Assembly: GCF_002933775.1 (NCBI RefSeq)
Contig: NZ_BEWV01000216.1
Span: forward strand, 1 to 64,000
Source of the DNA: Prevotella sp. MGM1
Lineage (GTDB): Bacteria > Bacteroidota > Bacteroidia > Bacteroidales > Bacteroidaceae
Direction of reading: 5' to 3'
Length of the DNA stretch: 64,000 nt
The notes beneath the pieces are model-generated. The model was not told the origin of the DNA, searched no databases, and worked only from the letters and a program-made list of their open reading frames with translations. Positions 1 to 8,908 of the stretch are shown piece by piece (position 1 is the first letter of the stretch; each line of letters begins with the position of its first letter). The translations under genes and the position numbers were made by a program.

Positions 1-24
1 TATACTCTTGATACTCTCTCCCGC

Positions 25-48
25 CCACCGGAAAAATCCGCTGACCCA
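25..48 (-). repeat. possible terminal inverted repeat of a second IS
   Basis: Read on the minus strand, this 24-bp stretch begins TGGGTCAGC and contains TCCGGT. It matches about 17 of 24 positions of the left tip of the ISAon1-like element that starts at 112, but points the other way. It could be the end of a related element whose body lies left of the window. The rest of 1-111 shows no gene. Confidence 0.35.
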
Positions 49-168
49 TTATTTCCGACCGATACACTTACCACTCATTTGTCGCTATAACATATATATA
101 TTCAAGAAATGCTGGGTCAGCAGCAAAATCCGGTTGAAGTGTTAAAAATTTCCGAGAGTAAAAAAATA

Positions 169-1068
169 TTAGGCACACAGTTTGGACAGTCGGAAAAGGA
201 AGAATGGAATGTCCGTCACTCCCCAGAACTGGCTTCTGAATGCTTTGACTTTGGCATTGAACGATTCTGCTCCTGCATTTGTGGACCGGTTTATGAAGTA
301 GTTCAGGATAGTATCATAGTGATTGCGGAAAGTCTCGGTGACTGTGCGGAACTGTCCTCCGTCCATTTCATCCACTTTGTTATACCACCGGGCAAGATTT
401 AGCCGTGCTACATCCTTATCTACTTTCTGATTGAAAATGTCTGTCAGATCCATAGCAAGATCGTAGGCTTTTTCCAGCTCCGGGTAGAACTCAAAGATGA
501 TGTCGGCTCTCCACCGCTGTGAGTGTGTCCACTTCGAGGCGTGTTTGGTGAGGATGTATTTTGCTCTGGCAAGCAGTTGCTTGCCAGTGTCACCGTTGGC
601 GTAGCGAAACGGGACATAAGCCACGCCTTCCTTACGACAGCGTGCCATTTCATCGTTTTCAATGTCGCGGGCCGTCCATCGCAGGGAAATGCGCAGTTCG
701 TCGATGGCGTCATAATAGAGTTTATGGACATGGAAGCGGTCGTTGGTGACAGTTGCCTTGGGGAATGACCTCCGGGCTATGAGCATCAGGGATGATGACA
801 GATCCAGTGTAATCTCTCTGACGGTATTGCGCTTTACAAGCGGTATCTTTTCAAGAACGGCCATGACGGCCTCGGCCTTTGTGCCGCATATGGCGGCAAC
901 CAGTGCTCCCTTGCCGCCATGAGCGTCGCGGTTGGTAACGAAAGTATAAAGCTCGCCGCAACTTAGAGATGACTCATCAATGGCGAGATTAGGACCGATA
1001 TTCTGAGGATACAGAATATATTCCCCTGCATGGTCAAGCTGCTTACAGCTTCGGTAGTCACTGAACAT
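169..1068 (-). CDS. ISAon1-like transposase, DDE domain (orfB)
   Basis: Catalytic half of the transposase, 299 aa from the first ATG. It contains the acidic stretches expected of an ISL3-type DDE fold: LAIDESSLS near residue 30, ITLDLSSS near 88, NDRFHVHKL near 109, and a C-terminal TNAGAESFNAKVKAFRSQFW segment, where the Glu of the triad probably lies. The reading frame stays open upstream of the ATG to about 1161, and that stretch encodes a helix-turn-helix-like segment (GAHYGVNGANLSRQY). So the functional protein probably starts earlier or is made by a frame change from the upstream ORF. OrfB is in the +1 frame relative to that ORF. No internal damage is seen. Confidence 0.8.
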   Translation of the reverse strand: MFSDYRSCKQLDHAGEYILYPQNIGPNLAIDESSLSCGELYTFVTNRDAHGGKGALVAAICGTKAEAVMAVLEKIPLVKRNTVREITLDLSSSLMLIARRSFPKATVTNDRFHVHKLYYDAIDELRISLRWTARDIENDEMARCRKEGVAYVPFRYANGDTGKQLLARAKYILTKHASKWTHSQRWRADIIFEFYPELEKAYDLAMDLTDIFNQKVDKDVARLNLARWYNKVDEMDGGQFRTVTETFRNHYDTILNYFINRSTNAGAESFNAKVKAFRSQFWGVTDIPFFLFRLSKLCA

Positions 1069-1147
1069 TTCCTTGTATTGCCTTGACAGATTGGCCCCGT
1101 TTACACCATAGTGCGCCCCTATGGAACGGATGCTTTCGGGTGTTGAC

Positions 1148-1495
1148 TCAATCCGCTTCTTTTAAAAAAGCTACGAACTCAGGGGGCAGGCGTGAGCCTT
1201 CTTCCGTCATGTCGTAGTCGTAGGTGAATATGCTTCCAGCCTCTGTATCTCGCCATTTCCTGCGCCTCACATGCAGGAAAACCGCTTTGCCGCGTATGGG
1301 GAAATCCTGTATTTTACGCTCGTCTGTAAATCCATATTCGCGGACTGTCCCTTTCTTGTAATCCTCGAGTGACATATAACCGCGCTCATCAAGCCTGTAG
1401 TCCAGTTGATTGTCGCTTTCCTTATAATCAAAAAACTCAAAATTCTCTGTTATAAATTCCGGAAATATTGTCCGTAATACTTGCCATTGTTTCAT
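1148..1495 (-). CDS. ISAon1-family transposase N-terminal region protein (orfA)
   Basis: A 115-aa protein matching the small first ORF typical of ISAon1-type elements: acidic N-terminus, LDERGYMSLEDYKKGTVREY in the middle, then FPIRGKAVFLHVRRRKWRD. It lies directly upstream of the DDE ORF, in a different frame, with a 12-14 nt overlap of open frames around 1148-1161. In this family it is thought to supply the DNA-binding N-terminus. The end of the ORF contains the run TTTTTTAAAAG. A simple -1 slip there would hit a TAG stop, so any fusion must be +1 (or -2), or orfB must be started separately. Confidence 0.75.
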   Translation of the reverse strand: MKQWQVLRTIFPEFITENFEFFDYKESDNQLDYRLDERGYMSLEDYKKGTVREYGFTDERKIQDFPIRGKAVFLHVRRRKWRDTEAGSIFTYDYDMTEEGSRLPPEFVAFLKEAD

Positions 1496-1748
1496 TCGGC
1501 AAAGTTCTCCCTTTTTCTCCTTTTTAACAACCGCTTTTTTACATTGACCCAGTATTTAATCCATCGGAACGGCTGACCACAAAAGAAAGAAAAGCACGCA
1601 CAACCCAACTTACAATTTAAAAAACAAACAAGGCACACCGATTACACATTGCAACAAAACAAGACTGATACCAATAATTATATAACAATACATCGGATTT
1701 AAACAACAATATGCCGGACAACAGGCATCTTTTCATGTCATAATGTTG

Positions 1749-1756
1749 TAATTTTG
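1749..1756 (+). promoter_or_regulatory. putative -7 element upstream of amt
   Basis: TAATTTTG fits the Bacteroidota -7 consensus TAnnTTTG, 85 bp before the amt start. The expected -33 TTTG is only weakly matched (TTTTC near 1730). The remainder of 1553-1840 shows nothing else. Confidence 0.4.
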
Positions 1757-1840
1757 CACCATAATTCCCGCATGATGCCGTTATAAACCGGCGGCAATAA
1801 TGCGGAAAGGGGCTGCGATGACAATACAAACATATATATA

Positions 1841-3211
1841 ATGGTTATGAAAAAAAGATGGATTATATTGATGACGGCCATGGCACTTACCGCCGTCACC
1901 GGCCTGTTTACAGACGAGCCTTCGTTTGAGTGCGACTTTTCCGTTATAAGTGCCGCCGATGTGGCATGGCTCATCACAGCCACCATTTTCGTCCTTATGA
2001 TGACTCCCGGCCTGTCATTCTTTTACGGCGGAATGGTCGGCGCCAAGAATGTGATATCGACAATGCTCCAAAGTTTCATCGCCATGGGAGTCATATCGGT
2101 AATGTGGGTAGTGTTCGGTTTCAGCCTGTGCTTCGGCGATGACATAGGCGGCGTGATAGGAAATCCGCTGACATTCTTCATGCTCGACGGCGTAGGCGCC
2201 TCGGTATATACCACCGATACCGGCAAGACACTCGGAGGAGCAACCATCCCGCTGGCTCTCTTTGCCCTGTTCCAGATGAAGTTTGCCATTATCACCCCCT
2301 CGCTAATCACAGGCTCTTTTGCCGAGCGCGTGAGGTTCTCGGCCTACATGTTTTTCATGATGTTCTTTTTCGTGGCCATATACTGTCCGCTGGCCCACAT
2401 GACATGGCATCCCGACGGACTGTTCATGCGCTGGGGCGTGGTCGATTTTGCAGGAGGAATAGTGGTACATGCCTCTTCCGGCGTGGCGGCTTTGGCAGGT
2501 GCCATATTCCTCGGACGCCGCCGCACGTCCACACGCCGCTCCACCCCGGCCAACATACCGTTTGTTCTTCTCGGCGCCGCCATGCTGTGGCTCGGGTGGT
2601 TCGGATTTAACGCCGGCTCGTCTCTCATGGCCGACGGCACCGCAATAAAGGCCTTTCTCAACACCAATACCGCATCGGCCACAGCCATGATGACGTGGAT
2701 TTTCTTCGATTGCCTCCGCGGTCGCAAGCCATCGGCCATGGGGGCTGCCGTGGGATGCGTGGTAGGCCTGGTGGCCATAACGCCGTCGGCAGGTTATGTC
2801 AGCGTTGGACAGAGCATCTTCATATCGTTCGTGACCACCATAATATGCAACATCGCCGTATATTGGCGCAGCCATACACGCATAGACGACGCGCTCGACG
2901 TATTCCCCACACACGGCACCGGAGGCATTGTAGGCACCGTGCTTACAGGTATTTTCATCCGTGAGGGATTGGTATCCGGCTCATGGGAGGGAGTGGTAAT
3001 ATTCCTTTACCATCTGCTGGCCGTGGTGACGGTTGCCGCATATACGTTTACGATGAGCTATCTCGGATACCGGTTCATAGACAGCATGATTCCGATGCGG
3101 GTGTCGGCTGGCAGCGAACTTATAGGACTCGACATGAGCCAGCACGACGAACATTACGGCTTTGCCCGCTCCGGCGAGCGAGAGATAGCCGAATACAGCC
3201 GTGAGGAATAA
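1841..3211 (+). CDS. amt: ammonium transporter, Amt family
   Basis: Inner-membrane ammonium channel/transporter, 456 aa, the usual length. A hydrophobic N-terminal segment is followed by about eleven membrane segments. The family signature DFAGGIVVHASSGVAALAGA is present, and the pore twin histidines are visible: H210 in VHASSG and H358 in FPTHGTGG. The early PGLSFFYGGMVGAKN motif is also typical. The start used is ATG 1841; a second ATG two codons later is equally possible. No glnK/glnB gene follows, although amt is usually paired with one; the gene is monocistronic, with a hairpin downstream. Together with gdhA 4 kb away it suggests ammonium assimilation by the Amt-GDH route. Function is secure from motifs. 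Confidence 0.95.
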   Translation: MVMKKRWIILMTAMALTAVTGLFTDEPSFECDFSVISAADVAWLITATIFVLMMTPGLSFFYGGMVGAKNVISTMLQSFIAMGVISVMWVVFGFSLCFGDDIGGVIGNPLTFFMLDGVGASVYTTDTGKTLGGATIPLALFALFQMKFAIITPSLITGSFAERVRFSAYMFFMMFFFVAIYCPLAHMTWHPDGLFMRWGVVDFAGGIVVHASSGVAALAGAIFLGRRRTSTRRSTPANIPFVLLGAAMLWLGWFGFNAGSSLMADGTAIKAFLNTNTASATAMMTWIFFDCLRGRKPSAMGAAVGCVVGLVAITPSAGYVSVGQSIFISFVTTIICNIAVYWRSHTRIDDALDVFPTHGTGGIVGTVLTGIFIREGLVSGSWEGVVIFLYHLLAVVTVAAYTFTMSYLGYRFIDSMIPMRVSAGSELIGLDMSQHDEHYGFARSGEREIAEYSREE

Positions 3212-3272
3212 ACCGGCGCGCCGGAAAATGCGCAAAAGCCATGCCCGGCACCAAGATTAATGATTACGAACC

Positions 3273-3306
3273 GCGCCCCAAAAGTTTTCCAAAACCTTTG
3301 GGGCGC
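3273..3306 (+). terminator. strong hairpin downstream of amt
   Basis: Arms GCGCCCCAAA and TTTGGGGCGC pair perfectly and extend inward through TTTT/AAAA with one mismatch. There is no clean T-run behind it, so it may be a terminator or an mRNA-end-protecting stem. The rest of 3212-3560 contains no gene I can support. Confidence 0.55.
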
Positions 3307-3561
3307 AGTTATTTCCGGACTCCAATCCATACCGTCGCGGGCTTCTCTCTTTTTCCATCCAACTGCCGCCACACAAAACACGGTTGGAGCCATACCGCCG
3401 AGCCACCTTATCTTCAATAAACCAAATCCATGGCTTTGCTTTCTCCGTCAGTTGAAGCCCTGTCGACAACACACATTGATATTTGCAAATCCATAATGCG
3501 ACATATCCGCTTTAAAGTCAATTTATGCTTTCTTTTCCGTTTCTTTTTCAATTTAATATCG

Positions 3562-3569
3562 TAACTTTG
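3562..3569 (+). promoter_or_regulatory. putative -7 element of the original metY promoter
   Basis: TAACTTTG matches TAnnTTTG and lies 63 bp before a copy of the metY start codon (3632). The sequence between fic and the intact metY gene has no equally good match, so this promoter probably drives the whole stub-fic-metY unit. Confidence 0.55.
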
Positions 3570-3576
3570 CGGACGA

Positions 3577-3696
3577 CAAACAAAACAGTTTGAAAGCAAA
3601 AATAGTAAAAGACGAGTAATACATAATTATAATGGCAAACAAACTAAGAACCGAATCACTCTGCATACGCGGAGGATGGAAACCGAAAAACGGGGA
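3577..3696 (+). repeat. 5' copy of direct repeat (metY leader and first codons)
   Basis: About 120 bp duplicated at roughly 4890-5011. The coding part (3632-3696) matches 63 of 65 bp; both differences are synonymous. Just upstream, 19 bp (CGAGTAATACATAATTATA) are identical, and further upstream the copies diverge but stay alignable back to TTTGAAA. The repeats flank the fic gene. Confidence 0.9.
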
Positions 3697-3757
3697 AGTT
3701 CTTAGATTACAACCGGCGAATAAAACACGTTCAAAGGTGCCCACAGGACACCTTTAA
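3632..3757 (+). pseudogene. metY: truncated metY 5' fragment (41-codon ORF)
   Basis: Starts with the same ATG and the same first 21 residues as MetY (MANKLRTESLCIRGGWKPKN), then runs into unrelated sequence after the GE codons and stops at 3755-3757, 22 bp before fic. It retains the leader and promoter region of metY. It may be translated as a 41-aa peptide, possibly coupling translation into fic, but it cannot be an enzyme. It is best read as a remnant created when fic was inserted. Confidence 0.8.
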
Positions 3758-3779
3758 ACATAAAAAAGCGAAAAGCGGC

Positions 3780-4847
3780 ATGGAAAATTTATACAAGCTG
3801 TACGACAAATGGATGAGCATCCGGCCACTCAGTGAGCGAAAGCAATATCTGCTAAGCCAACGGTTTACCGTGGAATATAACTTCAACAGCAACCATATAG
3901 AAGGCAACACGCTTACATACGGGCAGACAGAGTTGCTGCTGCTATTCGGAAAGGTTAGCGGCGAAGGCGACTTAAAAGACTTCATTGATATGAAAGCGAG
4001 CCAAGTGGGATTGAAAATGACGACAGAGGAAGCCGAAGAAAAACGTTTTCCGCTGACACAGAACTTCATACGACAGTTGCACAAAACACTGCTCAGGGAG
4101 GACTATACGGTATATCGACAGTTGCCGGACGGCAGGCAAACAAGCTACACGATACATGCGGGGACATACAAGACACGTCCGAACAGCGTAATCACACGGT
4201 ACGGCGACAAGTTCGACTACGCCACACCGGAAGAGACGCCCGCCCTGATGACCGACCTCATAGACTGGTACAACGAAGCCGAGACCGCAGGTGATTTATC
4301 ACCCGTAGAACTCGCCGCACTGTTTCACTACCGATATATCCGCATTCATCCGTTTGAAGACGGTAACGGACGTATTGCCAGACTGTTGGTAAACTACATT
4401 CTTTCTCGGCACGGATGGCCTATGATTGTGGTCCGCAACCGTAACAAGAACGAATATATAGAAGCCCTACACAAATCCGATGTCGAAACAGGACCTACCC
4501 CGTCGGCAGGCGCACACGCCACACTGGAACAAATACGCCACTTCATGAAGTATTTCAAGGCACTTGTTGCCCAAGAAATGCAATACAACATTAATTTCGC
4601 ATCTGAACAATCACCAAATGTATGGTGGTATGACGGCCAACGCATAGTATTCAGGAGCAAAACGACCGCTATTTTGCTCAAAGCCATGCAGCAACGGCCT
4701 GACATCACGATAGACACCCTCAGTAAAGAAGCGGGAATAGTGCCCACTGCCGTGAAAAAGCAACTGCGCCAAATGACAAATAAAGGTTACATCCAAAGGC
4801 AAGGAGAAGACGGGGACTGGTATGTGTTTGCCACCTCTTCTATTTAA
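3780..4847 (+). CDS. Fic domain protein (class II, autoinhibited)
   Basis: Putative protein AMP transferase, 355 aa, cytoplasmic. The Fic active-site motif HPFEDGNGRIAR is complete at residues 190-201, with the catalytic His190. The N-terminal region carries the inhibitory motif SNHIEGN (residues 37-43), which fits [S/T]xxxE[G/N] and marks a class II Fic protein whose own helix blocks ATP binding. The C-terminal 90 residues look like a winged helix, suggesting DNA binding. Known family chemistry is transfer of AMP to a hydroxyl side chain, or its removal; the target is unknown. No antitoxin gene is adjacent, consistent with built-in inhibition. The gene sits between two copies of the metY 5' end, a clear sign of recent insertion. 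Confidence 0.9.
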   Translation: MENLYKLYDKWMSIRPLSERKQYLLSQRFTVEYNFNSNHIEGNTLTYGQTELLLLFGKVSGEGDLKDFIDMKASQVGLKMTTEEAEEKRFPLTQNFIRQLHKTLLREDYTVYRQLPDGRQTSYTIHAGTYKTRPNSVITRYGDKFDYATPEETPALMTDLIDWYNEAETAGDLSPVELAALFHYRYIRIHPFEDGNGRIARLLVNYILSRHGWPMIVVRNRNKNEYIEALHKSDVETGPTPSAGAHATLEQIRHFMKYFKALVAQEMQYNINFASEQSPNVWWYDGQRIVFRSKTTAILLKAMQQRPDITIDTLSKEAGIVPTAVKKQLRQMTNKGYIQRQGEDGDWYVFATSSI

Positions 4848-4889
4848 TATCCTATATAATAAAGATGTAAGGCAACAACTGTTGAGAGG

Positions 4890-5011
4890 CAAACGAGACT
4901 ATTTGAAAAATAAAAAAGGTAGAAAACGAGTAATACATAATTATATATGGCAAACAAACTAAGAACCGAATCGCTCTGCATACGCGGAGGATGGAAACCG
5001 AAAAATGGGGA
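4890..5011 (+). repeat. 3' copy of direct repeat (metY leader and first codons)
   Basis: Second copy of the repeat at 3577-3696; it continues into the intact metY gene. Upstream of the ATG it has lost the TAACTTTG promoter motif of the 5' copy. Homologous recombination between the copies would remove fic and restore a single metY. Confidence 0.88.
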
Positions 5012-6233
5012 GCCGGTGGAGCTGCCCATAGTGCAAAGCACCACATTCAAGTATGACAACAGCGAAGAGATGGCGATGCTCTTCGACCTGAAAAAAGAGG
5101 GATATTTCTACACACGGCTGCAAAACCCGACAAACGATGCCGTGGCAGCAAAGATTGCGGCTCTCGAAGGCGGAGTCGGGGCGATGCTGACATCGAGCGG
5201 ACAGGCGGCAAACTTCTACGCAGTGTTCAATATATGCGAGGCCGGCGACCACATTGTGGCATCGACCGAGATATACGGCGGAACATACAACCTGTTCGGA
5301 GTGACGATGAAGAAACTCGGAATAGACTGCACTTTCGTGAGCCAGGAAGCGAGCGAAGAGGATATTGAGGCTTCGTTCCGGCCGAACACGAAACTGCTTT
5401 TCGGGGAGACCATATCAAATCCGGGATGCAAAGTGCTCGACATTGAGAAATTCGCACGCATAGCCCACCGAAAAGGCGTGCCGCTCATGATAGACAACAC
5501 TTTCGCCACACCGATAAACTGCCGTCCGTTTGAATGGGGAGCCGACATCGTGACACACTCTACTACAAAATACATGGACGGGCACGCCACGCAAGTAGGC
5601 GGCTGCGTGGTAGACAGCGGCAATTTCCAATGGGATGATTACGCGGAAAAATATCCCGGACTGACCTCTCCCGACGAGTCTTATCACGGACTGACATATA
5701 CCAAAGCATTCGGGAAAATGGCGTATATGACCAAGCTTGTGGCCCAACTGATGCGCGACTTAGGCTCAATTCCCGCACCGCAGAACTCATTCCTGCTAAA
5801 CCTCGGTCTCGAAACGCTGCACCTGCGGGTGGAACGGCACTGCCAAAACGCACAGCGGGTGGCCGAATTTCTTGGCAACGATCCGCGCGTGGCATGGATA
5901 GACTACCCCGGACTGAAAGATGACAAATGCCACGACCTTGCCATAAAATACCTGCCGAAAGGCAGCTGCGGCGTAATGGCATTCGGCCTGAAAGGCAACC
6001 GCGATACGGCTATAAAGTTCATGGACTCACTTGAAATGGTGAACATAGCCACCCATGTGGCCGACTCGCGTACTTGTGTGCTGCACCCGGCAAGCCACAC
6101 CCACCGCCAACTGAGCGAAGAGCAACTGAAAGAAGCAGGCATTGCCCCTGACCTGATACGGCTGTCTGTGGGAATAGAGAATGTCGATGACATCCTCGAT
6201 GATATCAGGCAGGCTCTTGACAAAGCTCTCTGA
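4947..6233 (+). CDS. metY: O-acetylhomoserine sulfhydrylase (MetY type)
   Basis: PLP-dependent enzyme of the Cys/Met metabolism family, 428 aa. The length fits MetY (about 430) better than MetB/MetC (about 390). The PLP lysine is K208 in THSTTKYMDGH. The C-terminus has the typical SRTCVLHPASHTHRQLS and IRLSVGIENVDDI blocks. Known reaction: O-acetyl-L-homoserine plus sulfide gives homocysteine plus acetate, the direct sulfhydrylation route to methionine. It lies 99 bp behind fic and is probably co-transcribed with it from the promoter at 3562. The gene is intact. O-acetyl versus O-succinyl substrate cannot be proven from sequence alone. Confidence 0.92.
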   Translation: MANKLRTESLCIRGGWKPKNGEPVELPIVQSTTFKYDNSEEMAMLFDLKKEGYFYTRLQNPTNDAVAAKIAALEGGVGAMLTSSGQAANFYAVFNICEAGDHIVASTEIYGGTYNLFGVTMKKLGIDCTFVSQEASEEDIEASFRPNTKLLFGETISNPGCKVLDIEKFARIAHRKGVPLMIDNTFATPINCRPFEWGADIVTHSTTKYMDGHATQVGGCVVDSGNFQWDDYAEKYPGLTSPDESYHGLTYTKAFGKMAYMTKLVAQLMRDLGSIPAPQNSFLLNLGLETLHLRVERHCQNAQRVAEFLGNDPRVAWIDYPGLKDDKCHDLAIKYLPKGSCGVMAFGLKGNRDTAIKFMDSLEMVNIATHVADSRTCVLHPASHTHRQLSEEQLKEAGIAPDLIRLSVGIENVDDILDDIRQALDKAL

Positions 6234-6256: not shown

Positions 6257-6281
6257 CTTACCGGACGGTTGTTCCGGTAAG
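6257..6281 (+). terminator. hairpin downstream of metY
   Basis: Perfect 9-bp stem CTTACCGGA / TCCGGTAAG with a 7-nt loop, 24 bp after the metY stop. Preceded by an A-run, so it also works for minus-strand read-through. Confidence 0.6.
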
Positions 6282-6296
6282 CAGACAAAAAACATA

Positions 6297-6332
6297 GTAA
6301 AAGAGGCGGAGCCGACGCTCCGCCTCTTTTAC
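6297..6332. terminator. bidirectional terminator between metY and the YitT gene
   Basis: Perfect 15-bp stem (GTAAAAGAGGCGGAG with its complement) and a 6-nt loop, with A4/T4 at the stem base on both strands. It separates two converging genes and touches the stop codon of the minus-strand gene. Confidence 0.85.
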
Positions 6333-7347: not shown

Positions 7348-7480
7348 TATCAAATTATTGATAACAATCTATGTTTTTGCCATTTTTTACTATTTTACAA
7401 ACACGTAGGCGCAAAAGGGTAAAACGGGTATCAGCATTTAACAATTTGTAACCTTACGGATATTTTTTCTTTGCTTTACT

Positions 7481-7511
7481 TTTGCCGTATGAGAGATTTT
7501 CACTATTTTTG
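7481..7511 (+). promoter_or_regulatory. Bacteroidota-type promoter of gdhA
   Basis: TTTG (7481-7484), a 19-bp spacer, then TATTTTTG (7504-7511), an exact match to the -33/-7 consensus. The predicted start of transcription is near 7518, giving a leader of about 50 nt. Confidence 0.75.
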
Positions 7512-7570
7512 TAGTGTACAAATAACATAAATGACAAAGAGTTTTTCAAACCTTTAAAAAATACATTACT

Positions 7571-8908
7571 ATGGAAGTGGAAAAAATAATGCAAGCCCTG
7601 GAACAGAAACATCCGGGCGAGGCCGAATACCTGCAAGCCGTCAAAGAGGTGCTCGAATCCGTAAAGGACGTATACAACCAACATCCGGAATTCGAGAAAG
7701 CGAAACTGATAGAACGCATCGTGGAACCGGAACGTGTGATAACTTTCCGTGTACCATGGGTAGACGACAAAGGAGAAGTACACGTGAACATCGGCTATCG
7801 TGTACAGTTCAACAGTGCCATAGGCCCATACAAAGGAGGTCTCAGATTTCACCCGTCTGTAAATCTTTCCATTCTTAAATTCCTCGGATTCGAACAGACA
7901 TTCAAAAACGCCCTGACCACTCTTCCTATGGGAGGAGGCAAAGGTGGCTCCGACTTTTCCATCAGAGGCCGTTCGGACAACGAAGTGATGCGTTTCTGCC
8001 AGTCTTTTATGACAGAGCTTTACCGTGTCATCGGACCAGACGAGGATATTCCGGCTGGCGACATCGGTGTGGGAGCACGTGAAATAGGCTATCTGTTCGG
8101 AATGTACAAGAAGCTCACTCACGAATGGAGCGGCATGATGACAGGAAAGGGGCTCGAATGGGGCGGCTCGCGAATACGTCCCGAGGCCACAGGATACGGA
8201 GCGTTGTATTTCGTAAACAAGATGCTGCACACACACGGACACGACATTAAAGGCAAGACTGTCGCTATCAGCGGATTCGGAAACGTGGCATGGGGCGCAG
8301 CCAAGAAAGCCACCGAACTGGGAGCGAAAGTAATAACGATATCGGGACCCGACGGTTACATTTACGACCCGGCAGGACTCGATGACGAGAAAATAGAATA
8401 CATGCTTGAACTGCGTGCCAGCGGAAACGACGTATGCCAACCGTATGCCGATGAGTTCCCCGAGGCCACATTCGTTGCAGGAAAAAAGCCGTGGGAGGTG
8501 AAGTGTGACATCGCATTGCCTTGCGCCACACAGAACGAGCTTAACGGTGACGATGCCGACATGCTTCTGACAAACAAGCCGCTGTGTGTAGCGGAAGTAT
8601 CCAACATGGGTTGCACGGCAGAAGCGGCAGAGAAATTCATAGCTGCGAAAACGCTCTTCGCTCCCGGTAAGGCCGTAAATGCCGGCGGAGTCGCCACGTC
8701 AGGACTGGAAATGACACAAAATGCCATAAGACTGAGTTGGAGCGATGCCGAGGTCGACGAAAAACTGCACGGCATCATGCACAATATACACGAGCAATGC
8801 GTGAAATACGGAAAGCAGCCTGACGGATACATAGACTACGTAAAGGGAGCAAACATTGCCGGATTTATGAAAGTAGCCAATGCCATGATGGCACAAGGAA
8901 TAGTATAA
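7571..8908 (+). CDS. gdhA: NADP-type glutamate dehydrogenase
   Basis: Converts 2-oxoglutarate, ammonium and NAD(P)H to glutamate in the cytoplasm. At 445 aa it has the length of the hexameric bacterial GdhA class. The substrate-binding [12 protein letters not shown] (K88) and the [11 protein letters not shown] block with the catalytic Lys K124 are intact. A Rossmann motif [11 protein letters not shown] follows near residue 236, and [13 protein letters not shown] near 317. It is preceded by a good promoter and followed after 10 bp by rlpA, so the two are probably co-transcribed. With amt upstream it gives a low-affinity ammonium assimilation route. NADP rather than NAD preference is inferred from overall similarity to this class. 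Confidence 0.95.

Follow-up and report, generated by a model that had tools for sequence, protein, structure and literature searches.

A class II fic gene and its palindrome between two copies of the metY start in Prevotella sp. MGM1

In Prevotella sp. MGM1, a complete fic gene lies between two direct copies of the metY leader and first codons, and it is preceded by a palindrome that recurs upstream of many related fic genes. We propose, with a probability of roughly 60%, that a class II Fic gene entered the 5' end of metY by horizontal insertion and brought its own operator palindrome along, that the locus would be read as a single transcript and that Fic would limit the expression of both fic and metY. 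Through the insertion, the metY leader and first 21 codons would have come to be present twice; the old metY start would have kept its promoter and turned into a 41-aa stub, and the intact metY would restart behind fic. In its working form, one transcript would run from the metY promoter through stub, operator, fic and metY. Fic, as an autoregulating Fic-HTH protein, would bind the palindrome and limit its own transcript, and the corresponding limitation of metY would be a new side effect. A mobile regulatory enzyme gene would thus apparently have taken over a housekeeping promoter, with metY rescued by a duplicated start and now placed behind the fic operator. All positions refer to the window, i.e. 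the whole stretch of 64,000 nt that was analysed (positions 1 to 64,000 of contig NZ_BEWV01000216.1, assembly GCF_002933775.1).

Anatomy of the locus

Comparison of the two fic flanks by blastn gives one match, in direct orientation, between 3577-3696 and 4890-5011 (122 columns, 88.5% identity, E 8e-40). This match is far beyond chance and bears out the preliminary description, in which about 120 bp with the metY start were repeated directly on both sides of a complete fic gene. A repeat search resolves it into 65 nt at 97% (3632-3696 / 4947-5011) and an ungapped stretch of 39 nt of the leader at 85%. The identity between the copies ends 65 nt into metY, hence the earlier count of 21 duplicated codons is correct. 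The two copies differ at 16 of the 67 leader sites compared, against two sites within the 65 coding nucleotides, both synonymous (TCA/TCG and AAC/AAT). The arrangement is known from one genome, a draft of 225 contigs. Final assembler k-mers are usually longer than 32 nt; because the longest exact run common to both metY-start copies is 32 nt, a false assembly join at the repeat is unlikely.

The list of open reading frames comprises fic (355 aa), the stub and metY (Table 1). The stub is open over 41 aa in front of fic, as described earlier, and metY is a complete frame of 428 aa that scores above the curated TIGR01326 cut-off (O-acetylhomoserine sulfhydrylase). The space between the repeats is approximately 1190 nt, 1068 nt of which are taken by fic, the sole gene there. 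Resemblance to the sequence upstream of related fic genes begins near GAATAAAACACGTT, as judged by eye. The G+C content of fic (48.1%) is lower than that of metY (53.3%), a difference that is not decisive. An Rfam scan returned one match, at 6265-6330, with E 0.55 and under the gathering score. On the minus strand, near the amtB-fic-metY stretch, two ORFs at 169-1495 resemble transposase pieces by eye.

Table 1. Features of the fic-metY locus in window coordinates.
Feature	Position	Strand	Basis
Original metY promoter, -7 box TAACTTTG (TAnnTTTG)	3562..3569	+	conserved in G188
5' copy: metY leader and first 65 coding nt (21-22 codons)	3577..3696	+	122-column direct repeat, 88.5%
41-aa stub ORF: metY codons 1-21/22, then ~20 insert codons	3632..3757	+	ORF list, repeat comparison
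Possible RNA hairpin, pairing CUAAGAAC in the metY codons with GUUCUUAG at the insert start	3644..3705	+	RNA fold
Left junction zone, metY codon 22 / fic-family upstream sequence	3697..3713	+	copy identity stops at 3696
Palindromic GTTCAAAGGT...ACCTTTAAAC, probably the operator for the Fic winged helix	3729..3759	+	motif kept across fic loci
fic, class II Fic with C-terminal winged helix	3780..4847	+	PF02661 6e-21, PF13412 9e-7, motifs, 3cuc
3' copy: leader and initial 65 coding nt of the intact metY; no -7 box left	4890..5011	+	repeat comparison, box scan
metY, O-acetylhomoserine aminocarboxypropyltransferase, intact	4947..6233	+	TIGR01326 579.1 bits vs cut-off 495.1

By sequence, the Fic protein is a self-inhibited class II adenylyltransferase with putative AMP transfer activity. 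This assignment is made because two motifs are kept in 18 aligned Fic sequences (own included). SNHIEG (residues 37-42) corresponds to the inhibitory motif [S/T]xxxE[G/N] and lies N-terminal to the Fic core; S37, N38, H39, E41 and G42 are invariant and I40 nearly so. HPFEDGNGR (residues 190-198) corresponds to the active-site motif HPFx[D/E]GN[G/K]R and is invariant throughout. The winged-helix match (PF13412, HTH_24) covers residues 299-339 with 28.8 bits against a cut-off of 21.9, and the nearest solved chain, PDB 3cuc (E 3.5e-98), covers residues 2-274 only.

Related metY and fic loci

The comparison with relatives supports fic as the derived element at metY and a single-copy metY start as the ancestral state. 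MetY homologues with at least 69% identity were found in at least 26 other genomes when 60 genomes (own included) were searched, and the first 45 MetY residues have a match in at least 294 of 398 genomes of the genus, taken as Prevotella sensu lato. The closest relative among the matches listed (G188) encodes a MetY that is 93.9% identical. Its metY has a single start behind the same promoter (ATATCGTAACTTTGC, which the window retains before the 5' copy), with no fic beside it. Window positions 3514-3696 match this genome at 78.5% and the gene order downstream of metY is kept; positions 1-3513 have no match in the 19.9 kb of G188 that were compared. With G188 as reference, the 16 leader differences can be polarised into ten changes on the 3' copy, three on the 5' copy and three that are unpolarisable.

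The search of 299 genus genomes with Fic points in the same direction. Relatives with ≥ 55% identity across ≥ 150 residues occur in at least 44 genomes (own included), the best among the matches listed being 75% identical (G078); among these matches, G188 has one at 28% only. Across 68 metY loci from 61 genomes, fic stands beside metY in two entries (L001 and L062), both of which are the locus itself, and metY is absent from all 29 other genus fic loci compared. Together with the single start in G188, this contradicts an ancestral position of fic at this site. At least 572 fic relatives were confirmed in named genomes, of which the best 80 were analysed. Nearly all of these are labelled Bacteroidales or one of its families, and they include one Clostridium MAG and one Capnocytophaga. 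No metY ortholog was found beside fic in these best 80 loci, the own species not being among them; the sole MetY-like match (L150) is 36% identical. In viral contigs, none of 144 stretches that fitted a pattern was confirmed as a fic relative.

A second metY start upstream of the first was found at the own locus only (two entries) among 63 starts tested with a median reach of 1500 nt upstream, which is too short for the longer-range copies described below. An apparent second start at L012 is a short tandem repeat. Among the matches listed for the 398 genus genomes, two matches to the metY start occur in five genomes (G000, G031, G140, G255 and G375). The first of these is the window itself. 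In G031 the apparent second stub is in fact a 127-nt overlap of two contig ends, and G140 carries two full-length metY paralogues on different contigs.

The remaining two genomes lack fic in the intervening DNA compared and do carry a second metY start. In G375 (L101, G375:C184, reversed), the second start lies 6.1 kb upstream (1706-1890 / 7802-7986, 185 nt, 87.6%), and metY proper has one TAG in its first codons. The intervening DNA holds a sigma-factor/receptor-like gene set resembling the DNA upstream of metY in G031 (names assigned by eye), which fits incoming DNA that recombined at metY. In G255 (L102, G255:C30), the second start lies 1.9 kb upstream (5528-5627 / 7424-7523, 100 nt, 88%). 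Relatives that lack fic and yet have two metY 5' copies, the observation named earlier as speaking against insertion of fic, are thus present in form; they carry other inserts, with the copies 1.9 and 6.1 kb apart, and we read them as events separate from the fic insertion. The frame of the upstream metY start in G255 appears to continue into the end of a glycoside hydrolase gene (by eye), and a 60-nt element before this copy occurs again 5.4 kb away in the locus (95%). The start of the glutamate dehydrogenase gene, chosen as a control for partial gene duplication, has two matches in most of the genomes listed and was rejected; for this reason the metY duplications are given without a base rate.

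Promoter, transcript and palindrome

The motif TAnnTTTG, which we take to be the Bacteroidales -7 box, occurs at 3562 before the 5' copy and at neither of the other two gene starts: even with one mismatch allowed, it is absent from 3697-3779 before fic and from the 120 nt before the intact metY. Its absence does not prove the absence of a promoter, as 21 of 54 metY locus entries lack the box within 120 nt before the start (33/54 have it). A scan for sigma-70-type (E. coli-type) promoters gave eight sites against 4.2 expected; one of them, a weak site (9/12) at 4882-4911, immediately precedes the intact metY. A crude scan of the + strand from 3200 to 5000 found no terminator-like site. Since the intact metY has no -7 box before it and no terminator was found on the coding strand, a single transcript is most likely, with the stub, fic and metY probably belonging to the same transcription unit. 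That fic captured the metY promoter, as put forward in the preliminary description, is well supported at the sequence level by the single box that is common to the window and G188. That account was incomplete in two respects, as fic has kept its palindrome and dependence on the 5' promoter now seems to extend beyond fic to the intact metY.

The palindrome has its core at 3733-3755. It lies between stub and fic, i.e. between the metY promoter and both genes, with the stop codon of the stub in its 3' arm, and it arrived together with fic. Many fic relatives share this AAAGGT...ACCTTT palindrome, and its inner letters co-vary on both arms (by eye). Within the 200 nt upstream of fic, 34 of the 80 named loci have a strict form of the motif. 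This form turns up in 1 of 1310 random tracts taken from these loci and before 3 of the 480 other ORF starts (≥ 150 aa) there; a loose form gives 61/80, 104/1310 and 29/480, respectively. The palindrome is therefore not universal, with 46 loci failing the strict and 19 the loose form. In the genus set, which largely consists of the same genomes as the 80 loci, 27 of 28 regions have the loose and 16 of 28 the strict motif. The dyad strength at the own locus is 12.0, compared to a maximum of 10.0 in 100 shuffles. Only 17 of 30 loci, with the own among them, have a dyad above the 95% level for shuffled sequence, and in a few of the 17 the best dyad is another one. Two loci (L108 and L114) have a different palindrome, and two others (L056 and L141) have an extra copy of the fic operator region directly after fic (39 nt at 92% and 95 nt at 88%).

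The 96 distinct upstream regions from both sets place the palindrome upstream of TAnnTTTG in 26, downstream of it in 25 and without a nearby box in 18; the remaining 27 have no such palindrome or have boxes on both sides. Because the palindrome lies upstream of the box, outside the transcript, in 26 regions, it is more readily seen as a DNA site than as an RNA hairpin. It is probably an operator, bound by the winged-helix domain of Fic, and binding of Fic at 3729-3759 may restrain fic and metY alike. In the own genome, AAAGGT-N6-12-ACCTTT occurs at five places, against three for the reversed control, and no regulon under this motif is claimed.

The conserved AAAGGT...ACCTTT palindrome of this family of class II Fic proteins with a winged helix is new here; no report of it for the Bacteroidales family was found in a literature search that reaches few of the subscription journals. 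According to the accessible parts of the respective reports, CccR of Yersinia pseudotuberculosis, a Fic protein with a C-terminal HTH, represses its own promoter through palindromes (PMC9755527), and CbFic2 of Coxiella burnetii is stimulated and dimerised by random-sequence DNA, the question of a specific DNA site being left open there (PMC10628234). The Fic studied here has in common with both, as far as these parts of the reports describe them, the N-terminal inhibitory motif, HPFxxGNGR and a C-terminal DNA-binding domain, and shares with CccR a palindrome near the promoter (PMC9755527; PMC10628234). In contrast to both systems, the palindrome in the window lies downstream of a captured metabolic promoter, with metY as second gene behind it. 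The family palindrome offers a concrete DNA site for the role of the DNA-binding domain of class II Fic proteins, which the accessible part of the CbFic2 report leaves open (PMC10628234). A more far-reaching reading, which we consider tentative and on balance doubtful, is that the acquired Fic has become wired to metY through its own operator and would control methionine biosynthesis together with its own synthesis. A large group of DNA-binding class II Fic proteins of the Bacteroidales would then have this palindrome as specific DNA partner, and the activity of these proteins might be switched by that DNA as that of CbFic2 is by random-sequence DNA.

Route of insertion

The insert would most likely have entered by recombination with incoming DNA at metY, with homology on one side and an illegitimate joint on the other, rather than by transposition. 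Between the repeats there is no recombinase, integrase or plasmid gene, and none of the seven inverted-repeat pairs listed flanks fic in the manner of transposon ends; the flanking repeat is the diverged direct repeat described above, not a short target duplication. Other bacteria provide precedents for insertion with one-sided homology, and the accessible parts of these reports, on homology-facilitated illegitimate recombination and on merodiploids, describe the same combination of foreign DNA, one-end homology and partial duplication of the target (PMC3240628; PMC3784515). A donor with fic upstream of a metY homologue was not found in the best 80 of at least 572 named fic loci. Some integrating elements, e.g. 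SXT at prfC, supply their target gene with a new 5' end. The metY locus resembles these in that the target is kept intact through a second copy of its 5' end, and differs from them in the lack of an integrase in the insert and in a repeat of ~120 nt at 88.5%. Excision of fic through recombination between the repeats, as suggested earlier, is possible but unsupported.

The same anatomy would result if metY had first been duplicated in tandem and fic had later replaced most of the first copy, sparing its 5' end. Tandem duplication during DNA uptake is documented for another bacterium in the accessible part of PMC3784515, and the divergence of ~11.5% between the copies, mostly in the leader, agrees with this order of events. 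We regard it as unlikely, given that nothing of metY past codon 22 is left before fic.

Read as reverse complement, the first insert bases (GTTCTTAG) match metY codons that lie 50 nt upstream, and the hairpin predicted from them in the stub message is stable. This complementarity is perhaps a trace of joint formation; an 8-mer complement is present by chance in 1.8% of random 26-nt tracts. Alternatively, the stub could work as a leader or attenuator of fic or metY, with the metY codons retained for an RNA structure or a peptide. Such a role would be in line with the fold of stub and joint (3632-3712, z -4.0) and with the slow change of the coding part relative to the leader noted above. The native metY start by itself (4890-5030) already folds with z -2.6, however, the 8-bp pairing with the insert amounts to a 2% coincidence, the comparison with G188 likewise shows more rapid divergence in the leader than in the coding part, and slow coding change could reflect gene conversion. 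We therefore judge a leader function very unlikely.

Apart from direct insertion of fic with its operator, fic could be what is left of a larger integrating element, a plasmid or an island, that entered metY by a single crossover and lost the rest. A 13.4-kb Segatella copri plasmid (L185, NZ_CP152355.1, 9492-11189) carries a fic that is 71.8% identical, separated by 36 nt from a recombinase-family gene in front of it; this fic has no family-type palindrome in the 200 nt before the gene. In G008 (L058, with fic turned forward: 1183-1302 and just behind fic), fic adjoins a tRNA-Lys gene, and a 69-nt repeat (93%) with the 3' end of the tRNA recurs on the other side of fic. Both cases agree with a mobile element, but the insert in the window consists of fic and palindrome only, and direct repeats at a distance of up to 1.5 kb show no clear excess around fic (7 of the 80 loci) over control blocks (11 of 255), which makes this origin improbable. 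The same counts do not support the idea that every insertion of the fic family comes with flanking repeats. Some of the repeats that flank fic are copies of the fic promoter/operator region, and the one at L163 duplicates part of a gene that is encoded on the opposite strand, unlike the arrangement in the window. The repeats in G008 resemble the ends of a small island, with only fic and short spacers between them.
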